DNA of 38,217 nt. It comes from Deltaproteobacteria bacterium (GTDB lineage: Bacteria; Myxococcota_A; UBA9042; DTJE01). Positions 10,406 to 22,245 of this stretch are shown piece after piece. Numbering within the stretch: position 1 is the stretch's first letter; each line of letters begins with the position of its first letter. The stretch lies in assembly GCA_016875475.1 (NCBI GenBank), contig VGRB01000004.1:1-38217 (forward strand). The letters run 5' to 3'. The notes under the pieces were generated by a model. That model worked only from the letters and a program-made list of their open reading frames with translations. It searched no databases and was not told where the DNA came from. The position numbers and the translations under genes are program-made.

Positions 10406-11173
10406 ATGATCGTCTCCCAGTTCCGCGAGGTCCGCCGGTTCATGGGCCGCATGGACCCGGGCCAGGACGTGGTCGCCGGCTTCAAGACCGTGTGCCAGGA
10501 GAACCGGATCGCGTCCGGCTGGATCATGGCGTCCGCGGTGCTGCGGAACGCGACCGTGGCCCCGGTCCTGGCCGACGGCAGCGGCATCGGCGATCCCGAG
10601 CGGACCGACGGCACCGTATTCTGCCCGTCGCTGTCCGGCAACGTGTCGGTGGAGGGCGAGACCCGCGGCGTCCGCCTCTACTCGATCTGCCACCCAGCGG
10701 ACGGCGGCGCGCCGCGCATGGGCCTGGTGCGCGCCGGCGAGGTCGTAATGTGCGAGTTCCTGGTCGTCGCGCTCGACGACGCCACGCTGGTGCGCCAGGC
10801 CGACGGCCGCGCCGGGTTCGCGCCCTGGGTCCAGCTCCAGGCGGCCGGCGAGCCGCCGCGCGAGGCGCCCCGCACGCCGATGCGCGCACCCGAGGGACCG
10901 GCCCCGCGGCCCACTCCCCCGCCGACCCACGTCGCGATCGAGGACGACGAGGCGTCCGAGCTGAACATCCTGGAGATGCAGCAGGGCGACTGGGTGGACC
11001 ACCCGAGGTTCGGCCTGTGCAAGGTCGTCCACCCCCCCGTGGACGACAAGGTGACGATCAAGCTCCCCGCCGGGAAGCACGTGGACCTCCACCTGGGCGT
11101 GATGCGCGTGCTGCCGCCGAAGCAGGTCGGGGGGAGGAAGATCTTCCAGGTGGAAGTCCGGCGGAAGACCTGA
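10406..11173 (+). CDS. PPC/DUF296-domain protein with a C-terminal Tudor/CarD-like small beta domain
   Basis: N-terminal PPC-like pattern (GQDVVAGFKTVCQENRIASGWIMASAVLRNATVAPV...LSLSGNVS...H); C-terminal GDWVDHPRFGLCKVVHPPVDDKVTIKLPAGKHVDLHLGVMRVLPP. Confidence 0.75.
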   Translation: MIVSQFREVRRFMGRMDPGQDVVAGFKTVCQENRIASGWIMASAVLRNATVAPVLADGSGIGDPERTDGTVFCPSLSGNVSVEGETRGVRLYSICHPADGGAPRMGLVRAGEVVMCEFLVVALDDATLVRQADGRAGFAPWVQLQAAGEPPREAPRTPMRAPEGPAPRPTPPPTHVAIEDDEASELNILEMQQGDWVDHPRFGLCKVVHPPVDDKVTIKLPAGKHVDLHLGVMRVLPPKQVGGRKIFQVEVRRKT

Positions 11174-11261
11174 GGGCCCCCCCCCGCGCCGGCCTCGGTT
11201 CGCGCGCAGGGTGCTGCGCGCGAACCGCCCGCACGAATGGACGGCCGGCGCGGGGGGGGCA
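11174..11261. terminator. Nested palindrome filling the convergent junction
   Basis: Outer arms 11176-11194 / 11243-11260 (GCCCCCCCCCGCGCCGGCC / GGCCGGCGCGGGGGGGGC); inner perfect 13-bp stem 11197-11209 / 11214-11226 (GGTTCGCGCGCAG / CTGCGCGCGAACC). Confidence 0.75.
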
Positions 11262-12656
11262 CTACTTCGCAGTCCGCGCACGGCGCCGCGCCGTGTACCC
11301 CTCCACGTTCTTCTGCTCGACCCGCGTGATCGCGAGCGCCCCGTCCGGCACGTCCTTCACGATCGTCGCCCCGGCGGCCACGTACGCGTCCTTCCCGACC
11401 TTCACCGGCGCGACGAGCTGGGTGTCCGACCCGATGAACGCGCCGTCGCCGATCTCGGTCGGGAGCTTGTGCACGCCGTCGTAGTTGCACGTGATCGTGC
11501 CCGCGCCGATGTTCGCCTTCGCGCCGACCGTGCAGTCCCCGAGGTAGGTCAGGTGGTTCGCCTTGGCCCCGGGACCCAGCACGGTCTTCTTCATCTCGAC
11601 GAAGTTGCCGACGTGCGCGCCGCGCCGCACCACGGACGCGGGCCGAAGGTGCGAGAACGGGCCCATCTGCGCCTCGTCCTCCACGACCGCGTCGGTCATC
11701 ACGCAGTACGGCTTGACCGCGACGCCGTCCCCGATCCGCACGTTCGTCAGCACGCACCCGCGGCCGATCGAGCAGCCTGCCCCGACGACCGTGCCCGCGT
11801 GCATCTCGACACCGGGCCAGACCTCCGAGTCCGGGCCGACCGCGCAATCCACGTCGATCATCACGGTCGCGGGCTGGCGGATCGTGACGCCAGCCGCCAT
11901 CAGCTCGCGCGCCTTGCGCCGGTGGAGCGCGGCCTCGACCTCGGCGAGCCCGGCGCGGTCGTTGACCTGGAGCGCCTCGTCCGCGTCCTCGACCACGTGC
12001 AGCCCGACCGGCTTCCCCGCGTCGCGGAGCGCCTTGACCACGTCGGTGAAGTAGAACTCCTTCTTCGCGTTCGCCGACCCGACGCCGGAGAGCATCCCGA
12101 ACAGGACGTCCGCCGCCGAAGCGTAGACGCCCACGTTCCCCTCCCGGATCGCGCGCTGCGCGGGCGTCGCGTCCCGCTCCTCCACGATCTCGGCGGGCAT
12201 GCCGTCCGCGTCCCTCAGGATGCGGCCGTACCCGGTCGGGTCGGGGAGCATCGCGGACGTCAGGGCGAACAGGCCGCCCGACGCCGTGAACGCATCGCAG
12301 AGCGCGCGGAGCGACTCCGGCCGGAGCACCGCCATGTCGCCGTTGACGACGACCGCGTTGCGGAAGCCCTCGCAATGAGGCCGCGCGCACATGGTCGCGT
12401 GGGCCGTGCCCTTCTGCTCGGCCTGGACCGCGAACTCGACCGGCGCGCCCGGGAAGAGGCCGCGCACCGCGTCCGCGACCACCTCGGCCTGGTGGCCGAT
12501 CACGAGCACCACCTTCGCGAACCCGGCCCGGAGCGCCGCGTCCACCGGGTACCAGACGAGCGGCCGGCCGGCGGCGACGTGCAGCCCCTTCTGCCGCCTC
12601 GACCGCATCCTCGTCCCGAGCCCCGCGAACAGCACGACCGCGACCGCGTCCTTCAT
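11262..12656 (-). CDS. glmU: Bifunctional UDP-N-acetylglucosamine pyrophosphorylase / glucosamine-1-phosphate acetyltransferase
   Basis: VVLFAGLGTRMRSRRQKGLH, QKGTAHA, NGDMAVL, left-handed beta-helix hexapeptide repeats, HLTYLGDCTVGAKANIGAGTITCNYDG. Confidence 0.94.
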   Translation of the reverse strand: MKDAVAVVLFAGLGTRMRSRRQKGLHVAAGRPLVWYPVDAALRAGFAKVVLVIGHQAEVVADAVRGLFPGAPVEFAVQAEQKGTAHATMCARPHCEGFRNAVVVNGDMAVLRPESLRALCDAFTASGGLFALTSAMLPDPTGYGRILRDADGMPAEIVEERDATPAQRAIREGNVGVYASAADVLFGMLSGVGSANAKKEFYFTDVVKALRDAGKPVGLHVVEDADEALQVNDRAGLAEVEAALHRRKARELMAAGVTIRQPATVMIDVDCAVGPDSEVWPGVEMHAGTVVGAGCSIGRGCVLTNVRIGDGVAVKPYCVMTDAVVEDEAQMGPFSHLRPASVVRRGAHVGNFVEMKKTVLGPGAKANHLTYLGDCTVGAKANIGAGTITCNYDGVHKLPTEIGDGAFIGSDTQLVAPVKVGKDAYVAAGATIVKDVPDGALAITRVEQKNVEGYTARRRARTAK

Positions 12657-12771
12657 CGGCGCACCTCCGTCGGGGCGGTATTCTACTCGCGCCGTCCGCG
12701 GCGTGGACAACCCGGCGGGCTCCCGGTAGCATTCCGCGGGTCCCGGGGCGCGATTCCGGAGGTGCCGGGCG

Positions 12772-15441
12772 TTGGGCGACACCCTCCCGCAGGAGCGGCG
12801 GTCCGCGCTTCACGTCGCGGTCAGCGACGCCTGCAACAACTCCTGCGTGTTCTGCCTGAACGCGCGGGTGGACGGCCGCATCGACGGCGCGCCGCCGCGC
12901 CCCCCCGCGTGGGAGGAGATCCGGGGGACGATCGACCGCGGCCGTGCGGCCGGCCTGACCGAGCTGGCCATCACGATCGCGGAGCCCACGCTCGGCAAGC
13001 ACCTGGTCCGGGCGGTCCGCCACGCGCGCGAGATCGGGTTCGAGCGGGTCGCCATGAACACGAACGGACGCCTGCTCGGGCGCGGCACCCTGCTCGACGA
13101 CCTGCTCGCGGCCGGGCTTTCCCGGATCGTGCTCTCGCTGCACGGCCCCGAGGCCGGGGTCCACGACCCGCTCGCGGGACGCGCCGGCGCGTTCGCCGAG
13201 GTCCTGGCGGGCCTCGAGAAGCTCGCGGCGCGCCGGCCCGAGAGCGGCTTCAACCTCCAGGTCCTCTGCGTGGTCTGCCGCCCGAACCTCGCAGCGATCG
13301 AGCCGATGTGGCGCTTCTTCGAGCGGCACGCGCGCCCGGACCGCGGCGACGGGATCTCGTTCACCGCCCTGAAGACGCTCGGCCTCGCCGCGGACCGGTT
13401 CGCGGACCTCGGGGTGCCGTACGGCGAGCTGGTCGATCACTGGCTCGGCGCCTGGCGCTCGCTCGGCGCGCCGCCCGCGATGATGCTGTCCGAGGTGCCG
13501 GGGTGCGTGGTGCTCGCCCGCGCGGCGACCGGGCCGGTCCCGGCCGTGGACGTGCCGGACGCCCGCTTCGTTCGCGAGGGCGTCGCGGTCCGGAACGCGA
13601 CCGACCCGAACTACGCGAAGCGGGACGCCTGCCGCGACTGCCGGATCGAGCCGGTCTGCCCCGGCGTGATGGAGCGCTACGTGGCCACGCACGGGTGGGA
13701 CGAGTTCCCGCCCGTCCGCGAGCTTCCGGCCGCGTCCGCCCCCGCGAAGGTGTCGGGCGACGGCGGGGCCCGGGCGGGCGACGGCGGGGCCCGGGCAGGC
13801 GACGGCGCGCCCGCGGTACAACTGGCCTGCATGCTGCTCGGCACGACCGCGGAGGCGCTCGCCCGCGGGGGGCTGTCCGCGACCTCGTTCCGGCGCAACG
13901 ACGACGGGCTCGCGGTCGGCGTCGCGGGCCCCGGCGGGTTCGAGGCGGTGCTCCAGGTCGCGCCGCGCGACGACACGAAGCCCGCCTACCTGCGGACCCC
14001 GGCGCTGAACGTCAGCTACTCCGGGGGGCCCGCGGAAGGGCTGCTGCCGAAGCTCCTGGCGCGCGTGGTCAGGGCGGTCGGGGACCGGCCGTTCGCCGAC
14101 CTCGCGGCCGCGTGGGACCGCGCCGCGGCCGCGGCCCCGCCCGCCCCGTCCCCCGCCGGCGATCCGGCCGCGCCGGCCGCGCCCGACCTGCCGCTGGAGG
14201 AGTCGTTCGGGGACACGGCCTGCGGCATGATGGGCGCGGTCGACGTGATCAAGGAGGTGCCGTCGGACATCGCGGTCGTGGTGCACGGGGACCGCGGCTG
14301 CCTTCCCACGCCCGAGGGCGCCTCCGCGCCGGCCTGCACCAGCGACATGCGCGAGATCGACGTGGTCGGTGGCGGCGAGGCGAGGCTGCTCGACGCGGTC
14401 CGCGCGACCCTCGCGCTCGGCCGCTCGCGGCCCGCCGCGGTCGTGCTCGTGGGGACCTGCCTGTCCGAGATGATCGGCGACGACCTCGACGAGGTCGCGG
14501 CCCGGGCGGAGGCGGAGCACGGGCTGCCCGTGGTGCCGATCCGCGCGACCGGGCTCCAGCCGCTCCGACCGGTCGAGGTCGCACGGCGCGTGCACGGCGC
14601 GCTCGCGGCCCGGTTCCTGACGCCGATGCCGCGCGCCGAGGAGATCGGCCTCGTCGGCTACCCGGACGACGAGCGCGGCCGGTTCCACTCGGAGGTCCGC
14701 GGCGTGCTGGCCGGCGCCGGGGTCGCGGTCGGGGGCGTCTGGCCGCGCGGCGGCCTGGACGGGCTCCGGCGCCTCGCGGCGGCCTGCGTCGTGCTCGCGC
14801 CCGAGCGCGTGGCGCACGGCCCCCTGCTCGACCGCCTCGATGCGCTGCGCGAAGGCGAGAACCGGCCCGGCCCCGAGGTCGCGGTGGCCGCGGCGCCGTT
14901 CGGGCTGTCCGCGACACTCGCGTTCTACCGCGAGGTCGCGATCCGCATGGGGAAGGAGGACGCGGTCAGGTCGCGCGCGGAAGGCGAGGCGGCCCGGGCC
15001 GCGGCCCGCGTCGAGCGCTTCCGCGGCCGCCACGCCGGGTTGCGCGTCGCGGTCAGCTTCGGCAACAACCGCAAGGGCACCGGCGCCCAGACGACCGTAC
15101 ACCTCGGGGTCGGGTACGTGCCGTTCCTGGTCGAGCTGGGCCTGGAGCCGGTCCTGGTCGCGCTGACCGGGGAGTCGGACGCCCAGGCGGCGAAGGTGCG
15201 CGCGCTCGCGGGGCGGCTCGGCGCCTCGGCCGAGGTCCACCTGCACCGGCGGCCCGAGGGGCTCGTCCCCGTGCTCGCGGGGGGGCGCTTCTCGCTCGCC
15301 ACGAACGAGAGCTGCCAGAAGCACTTCGTTGACGCGGCGAAGGTGCCGTACCTGCACTTCATGCGGATCGAGCCGGGGTTCGGCGGGATGATGCGGTCGA
15401 TCGACGCGATCGAGGCCGCGATCGAGGGGGGTGCGCCGTGA
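12772..15441 (+). CDS. Fusion protein: N-terminal radical SAM/SPASM-like domain plus C-terminal nitrogenase component-1-like (NifD/NifE/BchN-like) domain (TTG start)
   Basis: GGAGGT 8 nt upstream of TTG; radical SAM CNNSCVFC (12832-12855); C-x2-C-x5-C (13630-13659); nitrogenase-like CGMMGA (C484), HGDRGC (C510), GTCLSEMIGDD (C563); C-terminal NESCQKHFVDAAKVPYLHF...PGFGG. Confidence 0.87.
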   Translation: MGDTLPQERRSALHVAVSDACNNSCVFCLNARVDGRIDGAPPRPPAWEEIRGTIDRGRAAGLTELAITIAEPTLGKHLVRAVRHAREIGFERVAMNTNGRLLGRGTLLDDLLAAGLSRIVLSLHGPEAGVHDPLAGRAGAFAEVLAGLEKLAARRPESGFNLQVLCVVCRPNLAAIEPMWRFFERHARPDRGDGISFTALKTLGLAADRFADLGVPYGELVDHWLGAWRSLGAPPAMMLSEVPGCVVLARAATGPVPAVDVPDARFVREGVAVRNATDPNYAKRDACRDCRIEPVCPGVMERYVATHGWDEFPPVRELPAASAPAKVSGDGGARAGDGGARAGDGAPAVQLACMLLGTTAEALARGGLSATSFRRNDDGLAVGVAGPGGFEAVLQVAPRDDTKPAYLRTPALNVSYSGGPAEGLLPKLLARVVRAVGDRPFADLAAAWDRAAAAAPPAPSPAGDPAAPAAPDLPLEESFGDTACGMMGAVDVIKEVPSDIAVVVHGDRGCLPTPEGASAPACTSDMREIDVVGGGEARLLDAVRATLALGRSRPAAVVLVGTCLSEMIGDDLDEVAARAEAEHGLPVVPIRATGLQPLRPVEVARRVHGALAARFLTPMPRAEEIGLVGYPDDERGRFHSEVRGVLAGAGVAVGGVWPRGGLDGLRRLAAACVVLAPERVAHGPLLDRLDALREGENRPGPEVAVAAAPFGLSATLAFYREVAIRMGKEDAVRSRAEGEAARAAARVERFRGRHAGLRVAVSFGNNRKGTGAQTTVHLGVGYVPFLVELGLEPVLVALTGESDAQAAKVRALAGRLGASAEVHLHRRPEGLVPVLAGGRFSLATNESCQKHFVDAAKVPYLHFMRIEPGFGGMMRSIDAIEAAIEGGAP

Positions 15442-16700
15442 CCGTCGAGCCGCGCACATACCAGGCCCCGGCCAGCATCGGCGCCTGCGTGGCCGGGATC
15501 GCCGTGTCCGACGCCGTGACCGTGCTCCACGGCGGCGCGGGCTGCGACATCAAGCTCCACACGCTGCTGCGCCACCACAACCCGACCGGCGCGGTGCACC
15601 ATCGCGTCGTGTGCACGAAGATCGCCGAGGCGGACCTCGTGCTGGACCCCGGCGTTGTGGTCGGGCGCGCGGCCGGCGACATCGCGCGCCGCACCTCCGC
15701 CCGGCTCGTCCTGGTGACGGCCGCGTCGTTCGTCGAGATCGCGGGCATCGACCGGGAGCGCGTCGTCGCGGAGGTCGAGGCGCGGGTCGGCCTGCCTGCC
15801 GTCTATGTGTATGCCCCGGACTTCGCGGGCGACCTGTTCGACGGCTACGGCAAGGCCGCGGCCGCGGTGGCGGAGCGGATGCTGCGGGACGCGCCCGACC
15901 GGTCCGCGTCCGATCGCGCCGCGCGCGTGAACATCGCGGGCTACGTGCACGACCGGCCGATGGGCGATCACCGCGGCAACCTGGCCGAGCTGGCCTCGCT
16001 CGCCGCGGCGGTCGGGCTCGAGGTGAACGCGGTCCTGCTCGGCGGCTCGCCGGTCGCGGCGCTGGCCGACCTGCGGAACGCCGGGTTCGCGGTCGCGCTC
16101 CCCGGCGGCGGCCCGGCCGCGGACGTGCTCGCCCGGGACGCGGGCCAGCCGCGTGTGGACGCGCCGCTGCCGATCGGGCTCGAGGCGACCGCCGCGTTCC
16201 TGCGCGCCGTCGGCGGCGCGACCGGCCGGTCCGACCGCGCCGAGGCCCGGATCGATGAGCACGAGGCGCGGGTCCGGGCGCTCGTCCGGCAGGCCGCGGA
16301 GCCCCTGACCGGGCGTCGCGTCGCGCTGTTCGCCGACGGTCACAAGGTCGCGGGCCTGCTCGGGATCTGCCGCGACCTGCGCATGGTGCCGGTGCTCGCG
16401 GGCGTGCTCGACGGTCGCGCGGACGCGCTGCCCTCGCCGCTGCCGGACGGGCTCGCGGTCCTGGTCGATCCGGGCCAGCCGACGTGCCTGGCGCGCATCG
16501 CGGACCTCGCGAAGGCAGGCGCGGTGGACGCCGTCGTCGGCCCGGCCTGGGAGGTCCAGGCCGCGCGCCGGGCGGGCGTCGCCGGGATCGAGTTCGGGTT
16601 CCCGTGCAAGGCGTACCAGCCGTTGCACCCCGTCCCGTACCTGGGTTATGAGGGCGTGCTTGCGACGGCCTCGCGCATCCTCGAGGCCATTGGCACCTGA
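15438..16700 (+). CDS. Nitrogenase component-1-like beta subunit (NifK/NifN/BchB-like), GTG start overlapping upstream stop
   Basis: GTGA overlap; CVAGIAVSDAVTVLHGGAGCDIK; FADGHKVAGLLGICRDLRMVPVLAGV; C-terminal GFPCKAYQPLHPVPYLGYEGVLATASRILEAI. Confidence 0.85.
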   Translation: MTVEPRTYQAPASIGACVAGIAVSDAVTVLHGGAGCDIKLHTLLRHHNPTGAVHHRVVCTKIAEADLVLDPGVVVGRAAGDIARRTSARLVLVTAASFVEIAGIDRERVVAEVEARVGLPAVYVYAPDFAGDLFDGYGKAAAAVAERMLRDAPDRSASDRAARVNIAGYVHDRPMGDHRGNLAELASLAAAVGLEVNAVLLGGSPVAALADLRNAGFAVALPGGGPAADVLARDAGQPRVDAPLPIGLEATAAFLRAVGGATGRSDRAEARIDEHEARVRALVRQAAEPLTGRRVALFADGHKVAGLLGICRDLRMVPVLAGVLDGRADALPSPLPDGLAVLVDPGQPTCLARIADLAKAGAVDAVVGPAWEVQAARRAGVAGIEFGFPCKAYQPLHPVPYLGYEGVLATASRILEAIGT

Positions 16701-16711
16701 AGGAGGAAGCA

Positions 16712-17278
16712 ATGATCCGCGGAACCCGCATCCTGGTCGCGTCGCTCCTCGCCGTCGCGCCGGCCGTCCCGGCCGCGGCGCAGGGCAAGCCGGCGAAGAA
16801 CCCGGTCGCCGTGATCGAGACGAACCTCGGCACGATCGAGATCGAGCTGTGGCCGGACAAGGCCCCGAAGACGGTCGAGAACTTCGTCACGCTCGCGAAG
16901 AAGGGCTTCTACGACGGCACGCGGTTCCACCGCCTGGTCCCGGGCTTCGTGATCCAGGGCGGCGACCCGCTCTCCAGGGACCCGGCCAACCGCTCCCGGT
17001 GGGGCACCGGCGGCCCGGGCTACAAGTTCGCGGACGAGCCGGTCAAGGCGGACTACGAGCGCGGCTGCGTGGCCATGGCCAACTCCGGCCCCGACACGAA
17101 CGGCAGCCAGTTCTTCATCTGCGTCCGCGAGCTGAAGGGCCGCCTTCCGCCCAAGTACAACCACTTCGGCAAGGTCTCGAAGGGCATGGACGTGGTGGAC
17201 AGGATCGTCGCGCTCGACCGCGACGAGGCCGACCGCCCCAAGACCGACGTGATCATGAAGAAGGTGACGGTCAAGTAG
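16712..17278 (+). CDS. Cyclophilin-type peptidyl-prolyl cis-trans isomerase, exported
   Basis: GGAGGAAGCAATG; signal peptide ending AAAQG; VENFVTLAKKGFYDGTRFHRLVPGFVIQGGDP, NGSQFFI. Confidence 0.93.
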   Translation: MIRGTRILVASLLAVAPAVPAAAQGKPAKNPVAVIETNLGTIEIELWPDKAPKTVENFVTLAKKGFYDGTRFHRLVPGFVIQGGDPLSRDPANRSRWGTGGPGYKFADEPVKADYERGCVAMANSGPDTNGSQFFICVRELKGRLPPKYNHFGKVSKGMDVVDRIVALDRDEADRPKTDVIMKKVTVK

Positions 17279-20970: not shown

Positions 20971-22245
20971 TCACCGGGCGCGCCGCCTGGCGATCACGAC
21001 CGACCTGACCGGGGGATTGAAGTAGCCGAACCGGAGCCCCGGCACGGCCGCGCGCATCCCGGCCATGGCCGCGGACAGGCCGACCGGCTCGCCGTGGTCC
21101 CGGCCGACGACGTCCAGGTAGACGTCGGGGTCGATGTTCAGGTTGCGCATCTGGACGAAGTCCGCGCCGCACGCGCGAAGGCCGTCCGTGGTCGCGGCGA
21201 GGTCCGCGTCCGTGTCGGAAACCCCTGGGAACACCAGGAGGTTCACCGACACCCACCCCCCGGTTGCGCGGACCGTGCGGCCCGACTCGATCACGTCCGC
21301 GAGCGCGTAGCCGTGCGGCCGGTAGTACGCGTCGTAGGTGGGCCTCCGGAAGCTGTTCACGGACAGGCGGATCGAGTCGAGCCCCGCCTCGCACAGCCGC
21401 GCCACCGCGTCGGGCCGGCTGCCGTTCGTGTTCAGGTTGACCGTGCCCGAGCGGGTGCGGCGGCGGATCAGCCGGACCGCCTCGACCAGCACGTCGGCGA
21501 CCGTCAGGGGCTCGCCCTCGCAGCCCTGCCCGAACGACACGACCGGCCGCGGGACCCGGCCGATGTGCAGGCAGGCGACCTCGGCGATCTCGTCGGGGGT
21601 GGGCGTGAACGCGATGCGGTCATGGGGCGCGCACACGCCCGCGGCCGGCGCGAGCGACAGGCACCCGGCGCAGCGCGAGTTGCAGGCGCGCGCCGTCGGG
21701 AGGGGGCACTCCTCGCGCGCCAGGAAGAAGTTCTGCGCGGCGCGGCAACCGTAGACAAGGGCGCAGTGCTCGAGGTGCGCGACCAGCCGGTTCGCGGGCA
21801 TGGACCGGCAGAGCGACTTCGCGCGCCGGCCGATCTCGCGGCGGTCGAACCGGCGCGGGTCCTGGCGGTTCGACCGGTCCACGCGCACGGCCGTGGTCCA
21901 GAACCGGCCGCGGCGCCACCCGATCGGCGCGTACGCGTAGAGCGGGAGCGCGGGCGCGTCCGGTCCCTTCACCGCCGCGGGGTGCCCGAGCCGCAGCCAC
22001 GCCGGGCTGGCGAAGGCGGACACCGCGGTCACGCCGCGGACCACCTCGGGGCCGCCGGTCTCGGGGTGGATCCCGAGGGGCTCGCGGCCGGCGAGGAGAT
22101 AGACGTCGCTCCCCGCGGGCAGCGGGACCAGCTCGTCCTCCCTGGGCGGTCGCACGCGGCGGCCGTCGAACACGGCCATGCGGTAGAACGGGTGGTCGAA
22201 CATCCCGCCGCGGGAGTCGCAGGACATCAGGGCCGGAGCGTTCAT
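20971..22245 (-). CDS. Radical SAM protein of uncharacterised function
   Basis: ACNSRCAGC (Cx3Cx2C), GQGCEGEPL, NLNTNGSRPDAV, SIRLSVNSF; ATGA overlap with the rlmB stop supports start MNAPAL. Confidence 0.85.
   Translation of the reverse strand: MNAPALMSCDSRGGMFDHPFYRMAVFDGRRVRPPREDELVPLPAGSDVYLLAGREPLGIHPETGGPEVVRGVTAVSAFASPAWLRLGHPAAVKGPDAPALPLYAYAPIGWRRGRFWTTAVRVDRSNRQDPRRFDRREIGRRAKSLCRSMPANRLVAHLEHCALVYGCRAAQNFFLAREECPLPTARACNSRCAGCLSLAPAAGVCAPHDRIAFTPTPDEIAEVACLHIGRVPRPVVSFGQGCEGEPLTVADVLVEAVRLIRRRTRSGTVNLNTNGSRPDAVARLCEAGLDSIRLSVNSFRRPTYDAYYRPHGYALADVIESGRTVRATGGWVSVNLLVFPGVSDTDADLAATTDGLRACGADFVQMRNLNIDPDVYLDVVGRDHGEPVGLSAAMAGMRAAVPGLRFGYFNPPVRSVVIARRRAR

Follow-up and report, generated by a model that had tools for sequence, protein, structure and literature searches.

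A radical SAM–nitrogenase component-1 fusion with a beta-type partner in a Myxococcota_A genome, a candidate [4Fe-4S] nitrogenase-like reductase

Nitrogenase-like (NFL) enzymes are known to be paired with radical S-adenosylmethionine (SAM) proteins of several origins: Mar, Isr and Nfa each act with a radical SAM B protein, and several unrelated radical SAM families have been recruited to this role (PMC11423573). MAR has the six P-cluster cysteines plus C270/H429, and the characterized NFL enzymes that hold only [4Fe-4S] clusters act on tetrapyrroles (PMC12552129). In NifEN, the O-cluster ligands are NifE C37, C62 and C124, with NifN C44 nearby (PMC13031127). Only a handful of NFL reactions have been described, among them ring and C-S conversions that are difficult to bring about by other means. 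Here we describe a two-gene locus, ORF1/ORF2 (ORF, open reading frame), at positions 12,772 to 16,700 of a 38,217-nt stretch of DNA (the window) from a Deltaproteobacteria bacterium (GTDB lineage Bacteria; Myxococcota_A; UBA9042; DTJE01; assembly GCA_016875475.1, contig VGRB01000004.1), in which a radical SAM enzyme is built into the alpha subunit of an NFL component 1. The two-gene system probably serves to make or reduce an organic molecule and not to fix nitrogen. We tentatively propose an ATP-driven enzyme of nitrogenase-like type that uses [4Fe-4S] clusters to reduce an organic substrate, with radical SAM chemistry coupled in cis.

The fusion, its partner and their predicted cluster ligands

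ORF1 (12772..15441, plus strand, TTG start) encodes an 889-residue fusion of a radical SAM domain, a domain here called mid and a nitrogenase component-1 domain of alpha (D-like) type. ORF2 (15438..16700, plus strand, GTG start) encodes a beta-type (K-like) component-1 subunit of 420 residues. The two genes overlap at GTGA, and a ribosome-binding-site-like GGAGGT (12758..12763, plus strand) lies 8 nt 5' of the TTG. Pfam Radical_SAM matched residues 17-154 of ORF1 with 65.1 bits (curated cut-off 29.5), and Oxidored_nitro (curated cut-off 28.6) matched residues 484-813 of ORF1 with 101 bits and residues 13-418 of ORF2 with 208 bits. A single-chain AlphaFold2 model of ORF1 (28-row alignment, mean predicted local distance difference test score (pLDDT) 80.8) matched chains of NifD, NifE, VnfD and BchB in Foldseek with E of about 1e-18 and target-normalised template-modelling (TM) scores of about 0.6-0.7. 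With significant Oxidored_nitro matches in both subunits, the pair belongs to the NFL component 1 superfamily, the fold match being that of ORF1. An earlier sequence-only reading of the window had given the same gene lengths and overlap, a radical SAM domain N-terminal to a component-1-like domain, and a NifK/NifN/BchB-like partner; the ORF coordinates, the Pfam scores and the ORF1 model agree with it. In NCBIfam, no family matched ORF1 or ORF2 above its own cut-off, and the pair falls in no curated nitrogenase-family equivalog, in keeping with the candidate undescribed system suggested there.

A pattern scan of 84,980 GTDB species yielded only two close relatives of ORF1/ORF2. When a profile was searched against 379 Myxococcota genomes, the three orthologs scored 766-780 bits and all other sequences at most 189 bits. 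One relative, an uncultured Myxococcales metagenome-assembled genome (MAG; G005, CAIZWN010000044.1), carries the full-length fusion at 55% identity. In the other (G021, SBGO01000571.1), one contig carries the mid-D part together with ORF2, and a radical SAM-mid protein that lacks D stands at the end of another, the fusion being split at contig ends. Because an independent MAG has the full-length fusion, ORF1 is regarded as genuine and an assembly chimera within 13650-14220 is rejected. The earlier suggestion that a component-1 scaffold is tied in cis to radical SAM chemistry is supported.

The alpha-type domain comprises approximately residues 480-889 of ORF1 (14209..15438, plus strand; Pfam and fold match). 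When ORF1 and ORF2 were aligned with pairs of the Nif, Vnf, Bch and NifB-associated types, C484 (14221..14223) proved equivalent to NifD C62/NifE C37, C510 (14299..14301) to NifD C88/NifE C62, C563 (14458..14460) to NifD C154/NifE C124, and ORF2 C36 (15543..15545) to NifK C95/NifN C44 (all plus strand). The predicted bridging-cluster ligands follow the NifEN pattern of three alpha cysteines and one beta cysteine. ORF2 has no cysteine at the positions of NifK C70 and C153, and four of the six P-cluster cysteines are present in the pair. The position of the cofactor cysteine (NifD C275; also cysteine in NifE and VnfE) is occupied by glutamate in ORF1 and that of NifD H442 by methionine, and NifB was not detected above cut-off in the three genomes (G005, G021 and G000, the genome of the ORF1/ORF2 contig). 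The set expected of a Mo, V or Fe nitrogenase (NifD C275 and H442, six P-cluster cysteines and NifB) was thus not found, and a system of the iron-molybdenum cofactor (FeMoco) type is rejected for want of these ligands and of NifB. Since the pair combines a NifEN-like O-cluster set with the lack of a cofactor cysteine and of NifB, a [4Fe-4S]-only reductase is the simplest reading; where the sequence-only reading had proposed a reductase or a cofactor-maturation system, these observations favour such a reductase over a FeMoco-type cofactor system.

Eleven of the 16 cysteines of ORF1 are kept in the orthologs (C21, C25, C28, C245, C287, C290, C296, C484, C510, C563 and C848) and five vary. All predicted Fe-S cysteines are among those conserved; the only additional one is C848 (15313..15315, plus strand), a candidate active-site residue conserved only in the ORF1/ORF2 clade. 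In ORF2, C59 (15612..15614, plus strand) and C390 (16605..16607, plus strand; in GFPCK or GMPCR) are invariant in the three orthologs. Outside these, equivalents of C848, C59 and C390 are scattered or absent.

The ligand set also bears on the least likely of the rival explanations, a MAR-like reductase with a P-cluster and an [Fe8S9C]-cluster that cleaves C-S or similar bonds. Among solved chains, MarD and MarK rank with the nearest, and Mar, Isr and Nfa all pair NFL enzymes with a radical SAM B protein (PMC11423573). However, with four of six P-cluster cysteines, no ligand of the Cys270 type, no NifB found, and trees that keep the ORF1/ORF2 clade away from the NifB-associated pairs tested, this explanation is already disfavoured and very improbable.

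The radical SAM domain, together with its single auxiliary [4Fe-4S] site, covers approximately residues 8-320 (12793..13731, plus strand; Pfam Radical_SAM, HxsC4-like). Its SAM-cluster motif CX3CX2C (C21, C25 and C28; 12832..12855, plus strand) is invariant in the orthologs and, together with the Pfam score, places it in the radical SAM superfamily. C245 (13504..13506, plus strand) and C287/C290/C296 (CX2CX5C; 13630..13659, plus strand), likewise invariant, are predicted auxiliary-cluster ligands. The nearest NCBIfam family is HxsC4 (NF038332, 129.8 bits), followed by MoaA and heme b synthase (AhbD, 50.7 bits), with HxsC and GeoRSP also among the matches; the domain is not a member of HxsC4, because its score is below the curated cut-off of 500. 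Among the 25 families listed for ORF1 there was no nifB match, nor was there a match to the nifB model at the ORF1/ORF2 locus, in agreement with the earlier view that the radical SAM domain is not NifB-like. The same view had called it MoaA/PqqE/SPASM-like. The likeness to MoaA stands, but SPASM had no Pfam match in ORF1, and the conserved auxiliary cysteines form one Cys4 set instead of the two auxiliary clusters of SPASM proteins. Another genome (G006) has a cluster of six radical SAM genes (L071:191-10022), one of which ranks with the closest relatives of the radical SAM part of ORF1.

The mid domain and the Myxococcota radiation

Mid (approximately residues 345-460; 13804..14151, plus strand) is a separate third domain of about 100 positions between the radical SAM and component-1 domains of ORF1. 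It has no Pfam or NCBIfam match. Its model (pLDDT 90.7, predicted TM score 0.81) consists of two helices, four strands and two helices and matched no PDB chain at E<=0.001; the best PDB match, RnlA (E 0.03), was treated as noise and rejected as a relative. Iterated searches placed mid at the N terminus of many D-type subunits; they found it, too, on radical SAM or CX3CX2C proteins adjoining D/K pairs (L018 4130-7138, E 2.8e-19; L108 5282-8227, E 4.9e-16; L120 3409-5244, E 4.5e-16; L119 10823-12103, E 6.6e-12), while further radical SAM proteins carry it at either end. It was detected in 34 of the 52 genomes of the class. As one module sits on both partner enzymes, the fusion is intelligible as a radical SAM-mid protein joined to a mid-D protein. 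Radical SAM proteins with an N- or C-terminal mid and no adjacent nitrogenase-like gene in the retrieved stretch were also observed (L154-L158, L160-L162 and L165).

The recurrence of mid on radical SAM proteins would suit a peptide-recognition domain. Together with the HxsC4, HxsC and GeoRSP matches, this recurrence speaks for a maturase of HxsC type whose target would be a ribosomal peptide or else a partner protein; the NFL part would then reduce the residue so modified. This is an improbable explanation, since a search for a conserved short peptide ORF adjoining the ORF1/ORF2 loci found none, and the predicted topology of mid does not resemble the winged-helix fold of the recognition element of ribosomally synthesized and post-translationally modified peptides.

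ORF1/ORF2 are one branch of a large unnamed Myxococcota nitrogenase-like radiation and not the isolated two-gene locus that the window by itself had suggested; a NifH encoded elsewhere co-occurs with them one-to-one (see below). G000 has 30 Oxidored_nitro matches over 17 contigs (e.g., L017, L018, L020-L025 and L028), and nine related genomes and one of the same phylum have 0 to 11 each. Five beta-type proteins of the radiation matched no NCBIfam family at 1e-15. The phylogenetic trees included one BchN/BchB pair, with CfbD, BchY/Z, MarDK, IsrDK and NfaDK sequences left out. In the beta tree, all Myxococcota sequences lie on one side of a 100/100 branch that separates them from NifK, NifN, VnfK, VnfN, BchB and NifB-associated K, and the ORF2 clade (100/99) branches from other Myxococcota sequences (98/92). 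In the alpha tree, the ORF1 clade (100/100) joins a second mid-less clade (97/93) and lies outside the reference clade. In that second mid-less D/K clade, a large gene (771-820 aa) stands directly upstream of D in two genomes (L104:8605-13889 and L107:7299-12314).

Radical SAM partners are usual in trans within the radiation, as in Mar, Isr and Nfa. Operons of the order H-(mid)D-K-radical SAM are found at L104 14046-19998, L108 5282-12245 (minus strand) and L110 3957-10445 (minus strand). Nitrogenase paralogs adjoining many radical SAM genes were reportedly described for Elusimicrobia by Meheust in 2020, a report not used as evidence here. Other fusions of the radiation are NifH-mid-mid-D (L149), mid-mid-D (L151) and a NifH-D protein of 999 aa (L120:5241-8240). 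On contig C368 of G000 (L031), a 708-aa radical SAM gene with two CX3CX2C motifs is located on the same strand as a partial K-like gene, two genes downstream of it. In the literature searched, no precedent appeared for the radical SAM-mid-D fusion, for mid as a shared domain or for a Myxococcota radiation of this size.

The approximately 15 other component-1 loci of G000 could be clients of a maturase, and it is conceivable, though unlikely, that ORF1/ORF2 are a NifEN-like maturase or scaffold. In this reading, a metallocluster or an organometallic cofactor would be built or altered by the radical SAM domain, and the alpha/beta pair would hold it, reduce it and pass it on to other members of the radiation. 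The NifEN-like bridging-ligand set agrees with such a role, as do fusions of the NifN-NifB type and the NCBIfam ranking. There nifE comes first for ORF2, with anfK, BchB and others close behind, and first among the component-1 families for ORF1; the two scores of the pair are 62.8 and 70.8 bits against a cut-off of 505.1. However, ORF1 lacks the L-cluster cysteine of NifE, its radical SAM domain is unlike NifB, and no NifB was found. Nor are ORF1/ORF2 a general maturase, because most genomes with related pairs lack them.

The Fe protein and the proposed reaction

Six NifH-like genes (one partial) scored above cut-off in G000, none of them at the ORF1/ORF2 locus. The NifH on contig C182 has one-to-one orthologs in G005 and G021 (71% and 66% identity), which score 431 and 404 bits against 284 bits for the next match. 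Among the 52 class genomes, these orthologs and ORF1/ORF2 occur in the same three only; such an exact overlap would have a chance of 1 in 22,100 if the genomes were independent, which they are not. In G021, the NifH ortholog and the mid-D/ORF2 pair lie on the same 8.8-kb contig. The order on C182 is a gene with two radical SAM motifs, NifH, and a mid domain cut by the contig end. The right end of C182 and the left end of C34 of G000 have gene contents (H, mid and D, K) which suggest, but do not prove, that the contigs adjoin, as in L105 of G005.

Under the reductase proposal, ORF1/ORF2 would be the catalytic part of an ATP-dependent, nitrogenase-like enzyme with a built-in radical SAM module. 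The C182 NifH-type Fe protein would dock on the alpha/beta pair and pass electrons to a bridging [4Fe-4S] cluster held by ORF1 C484, C510 and C563 and ORF2 C36. From there, as in DPOR and CfbCD, they would go to an organic substrate bound in the cavity between alpha and beta, and not to a small molecule on a cluster of FeMoco type. The radical SAM domain, with its SAM cluster and auxiliary [4Fe-4S] cluster, may apply 5'-deoxyadenosyl-radical chemistry to this same substrate or within the same pathway. Mid may hold the common substrate, its carrier or a partner, and if so the fusion would keep both steps together.

Several points weigh against this proposal. The ligands were assigned from alignments at about 20% identity, and the lack of a NifB match is qualified by the G000 assembly, which is fragmented and 89% complete. 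The NifH of G005 also adjoins another mid-D/K pair, whose G000 counterpart is on C34, so that the C182 NifH may serve either pair. No pathway neighbour of the pair is known, and its only conserved flanking gene is the two-radical-SAM-domain gene, which is directly upstream of ORF1 in G005; G000 has a relative on C182 and G021 one of 28% identity. Its neighbours, inspected for a pathway, were variable and revealed nothing telling. Proteins of approximately 670-690 aa that combine two CX3CX2C motifs with a match to SPASM (L032:7180-9201, L178, L179 and L182-L186) occur in several copies in some genomes with varying neighbours, and yielded matches at E<=1e-40 in seven other class genomes.

As a specific form of the proposed reductase, the substrate could be a modified tetrapyrrole on which the radical SAM part would act in the manner of AhbD/NirJ, while the NFL part would carry out a reduction like that of DPOR/COR/CfbCD. 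The characterized [4Fe-4S]-only NFL enzymes use tetrapyrroles (PMC12552129), and the radical SAM part does match AhbD. HxsC4 is far closer, however, no tetrapyrrole gene was recognized nearby, BchN is absent from G000, and approximately 15 paralogous pairs suggest many substrates; we regard a tetrapyrrole as improbable.

The organic-substrate reductase may also be part of a wider enzyme logic, in which radical SAM chemistry and ATP-driven NFL reduction act on one substrate via the shared mid domain and have diversified into approximately 15 component-1 loci in one genome to make cofactors or metabolites; this is a possibility, but a doubtful one. The locus brings together a radical SAM enzyme built into an alpha subunit, a domain linking two enzyme classes and a lineage with multiplied systems. 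ORF1, ORF2 and one NifH are concrete genes with testable cluster content that could widen the set of reactions assigned to the nitrogenase superfamily, and the fusion could serve as a Rosetta-stone case for pairs of radical SAM and NFL proteins.

Elsewhere in the window, the cyclophilin gene 3' of the pair (16712-17278) is not kept at the other ORF1/ORF2 loci. A radical SAM-like gene at 20971-22245 (minus strand; CX3CX2C at residue 188, weak match of 24 bits) has an unrelated context. Long antisense ORFs (e.g., 10678-15459, minus strand, 1593 aa) were rejected as frame artefacts of high G+C content.

Comparison with described systems

Like IsrBHDK, MarBHDK and NfaBHDK (Group IV), the system combines nitrogenase-like H, D and K proteins with a radical SAM partner, but theirs is a separate protein, whereas that of ORF1 is fused to D via mid. 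Mar has P- and [Fe8S9C]-clusters; the cluster ligands of ORF1/ORF2 differ, and the P-cluster cysteine set, Cys270/His429 and NifB-like MarB that characterize MarBHDK were not found. In Clostridium pasteurianum, NifN-NifB joins a component-1-type domain to a radical SAM domain; there the radical SAM domain is of NifB type, the order is the opposite and the fusion is on the N/K side, whereas that of ORF1 is on the D side. HxsC4 and HxsC resemble the radical SAM domain of ORF1 as its best match, albeit below cut-off, but no His-Xaa-Ser repeat substrate was identified for ORF1/ORF2.

Identity with DPOR or COR is rejected, as scores are far below the bchN, bchB and bchZ cut-offs and G000 lacks BchN, and so is identity with CfbD (26.1 bits against the TIGR03282 cut-off of 268.4). 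With NifEN, the pair shares the bridging-ligand set of three alpha cysteines and one beta cysteine, but ORF1 has glutamate in place of the L-cluster cysteine, and the trees separate ORF1/ORF2 from NifEN. DPOR (BchLNB) and CfbCD are alike in the proposed chemistry, being [4Fe-4S]-only systems for the ATP-driven reduction of organic substrates, and DPOR likewise has no cofactor cysteine at the NifD C275 position (glutamine in BchN, glutamate in ORF1). They differ from ORF1/ORF2 in that BchB lacks the beta cysteine and neither system includes a radical SAM domain.

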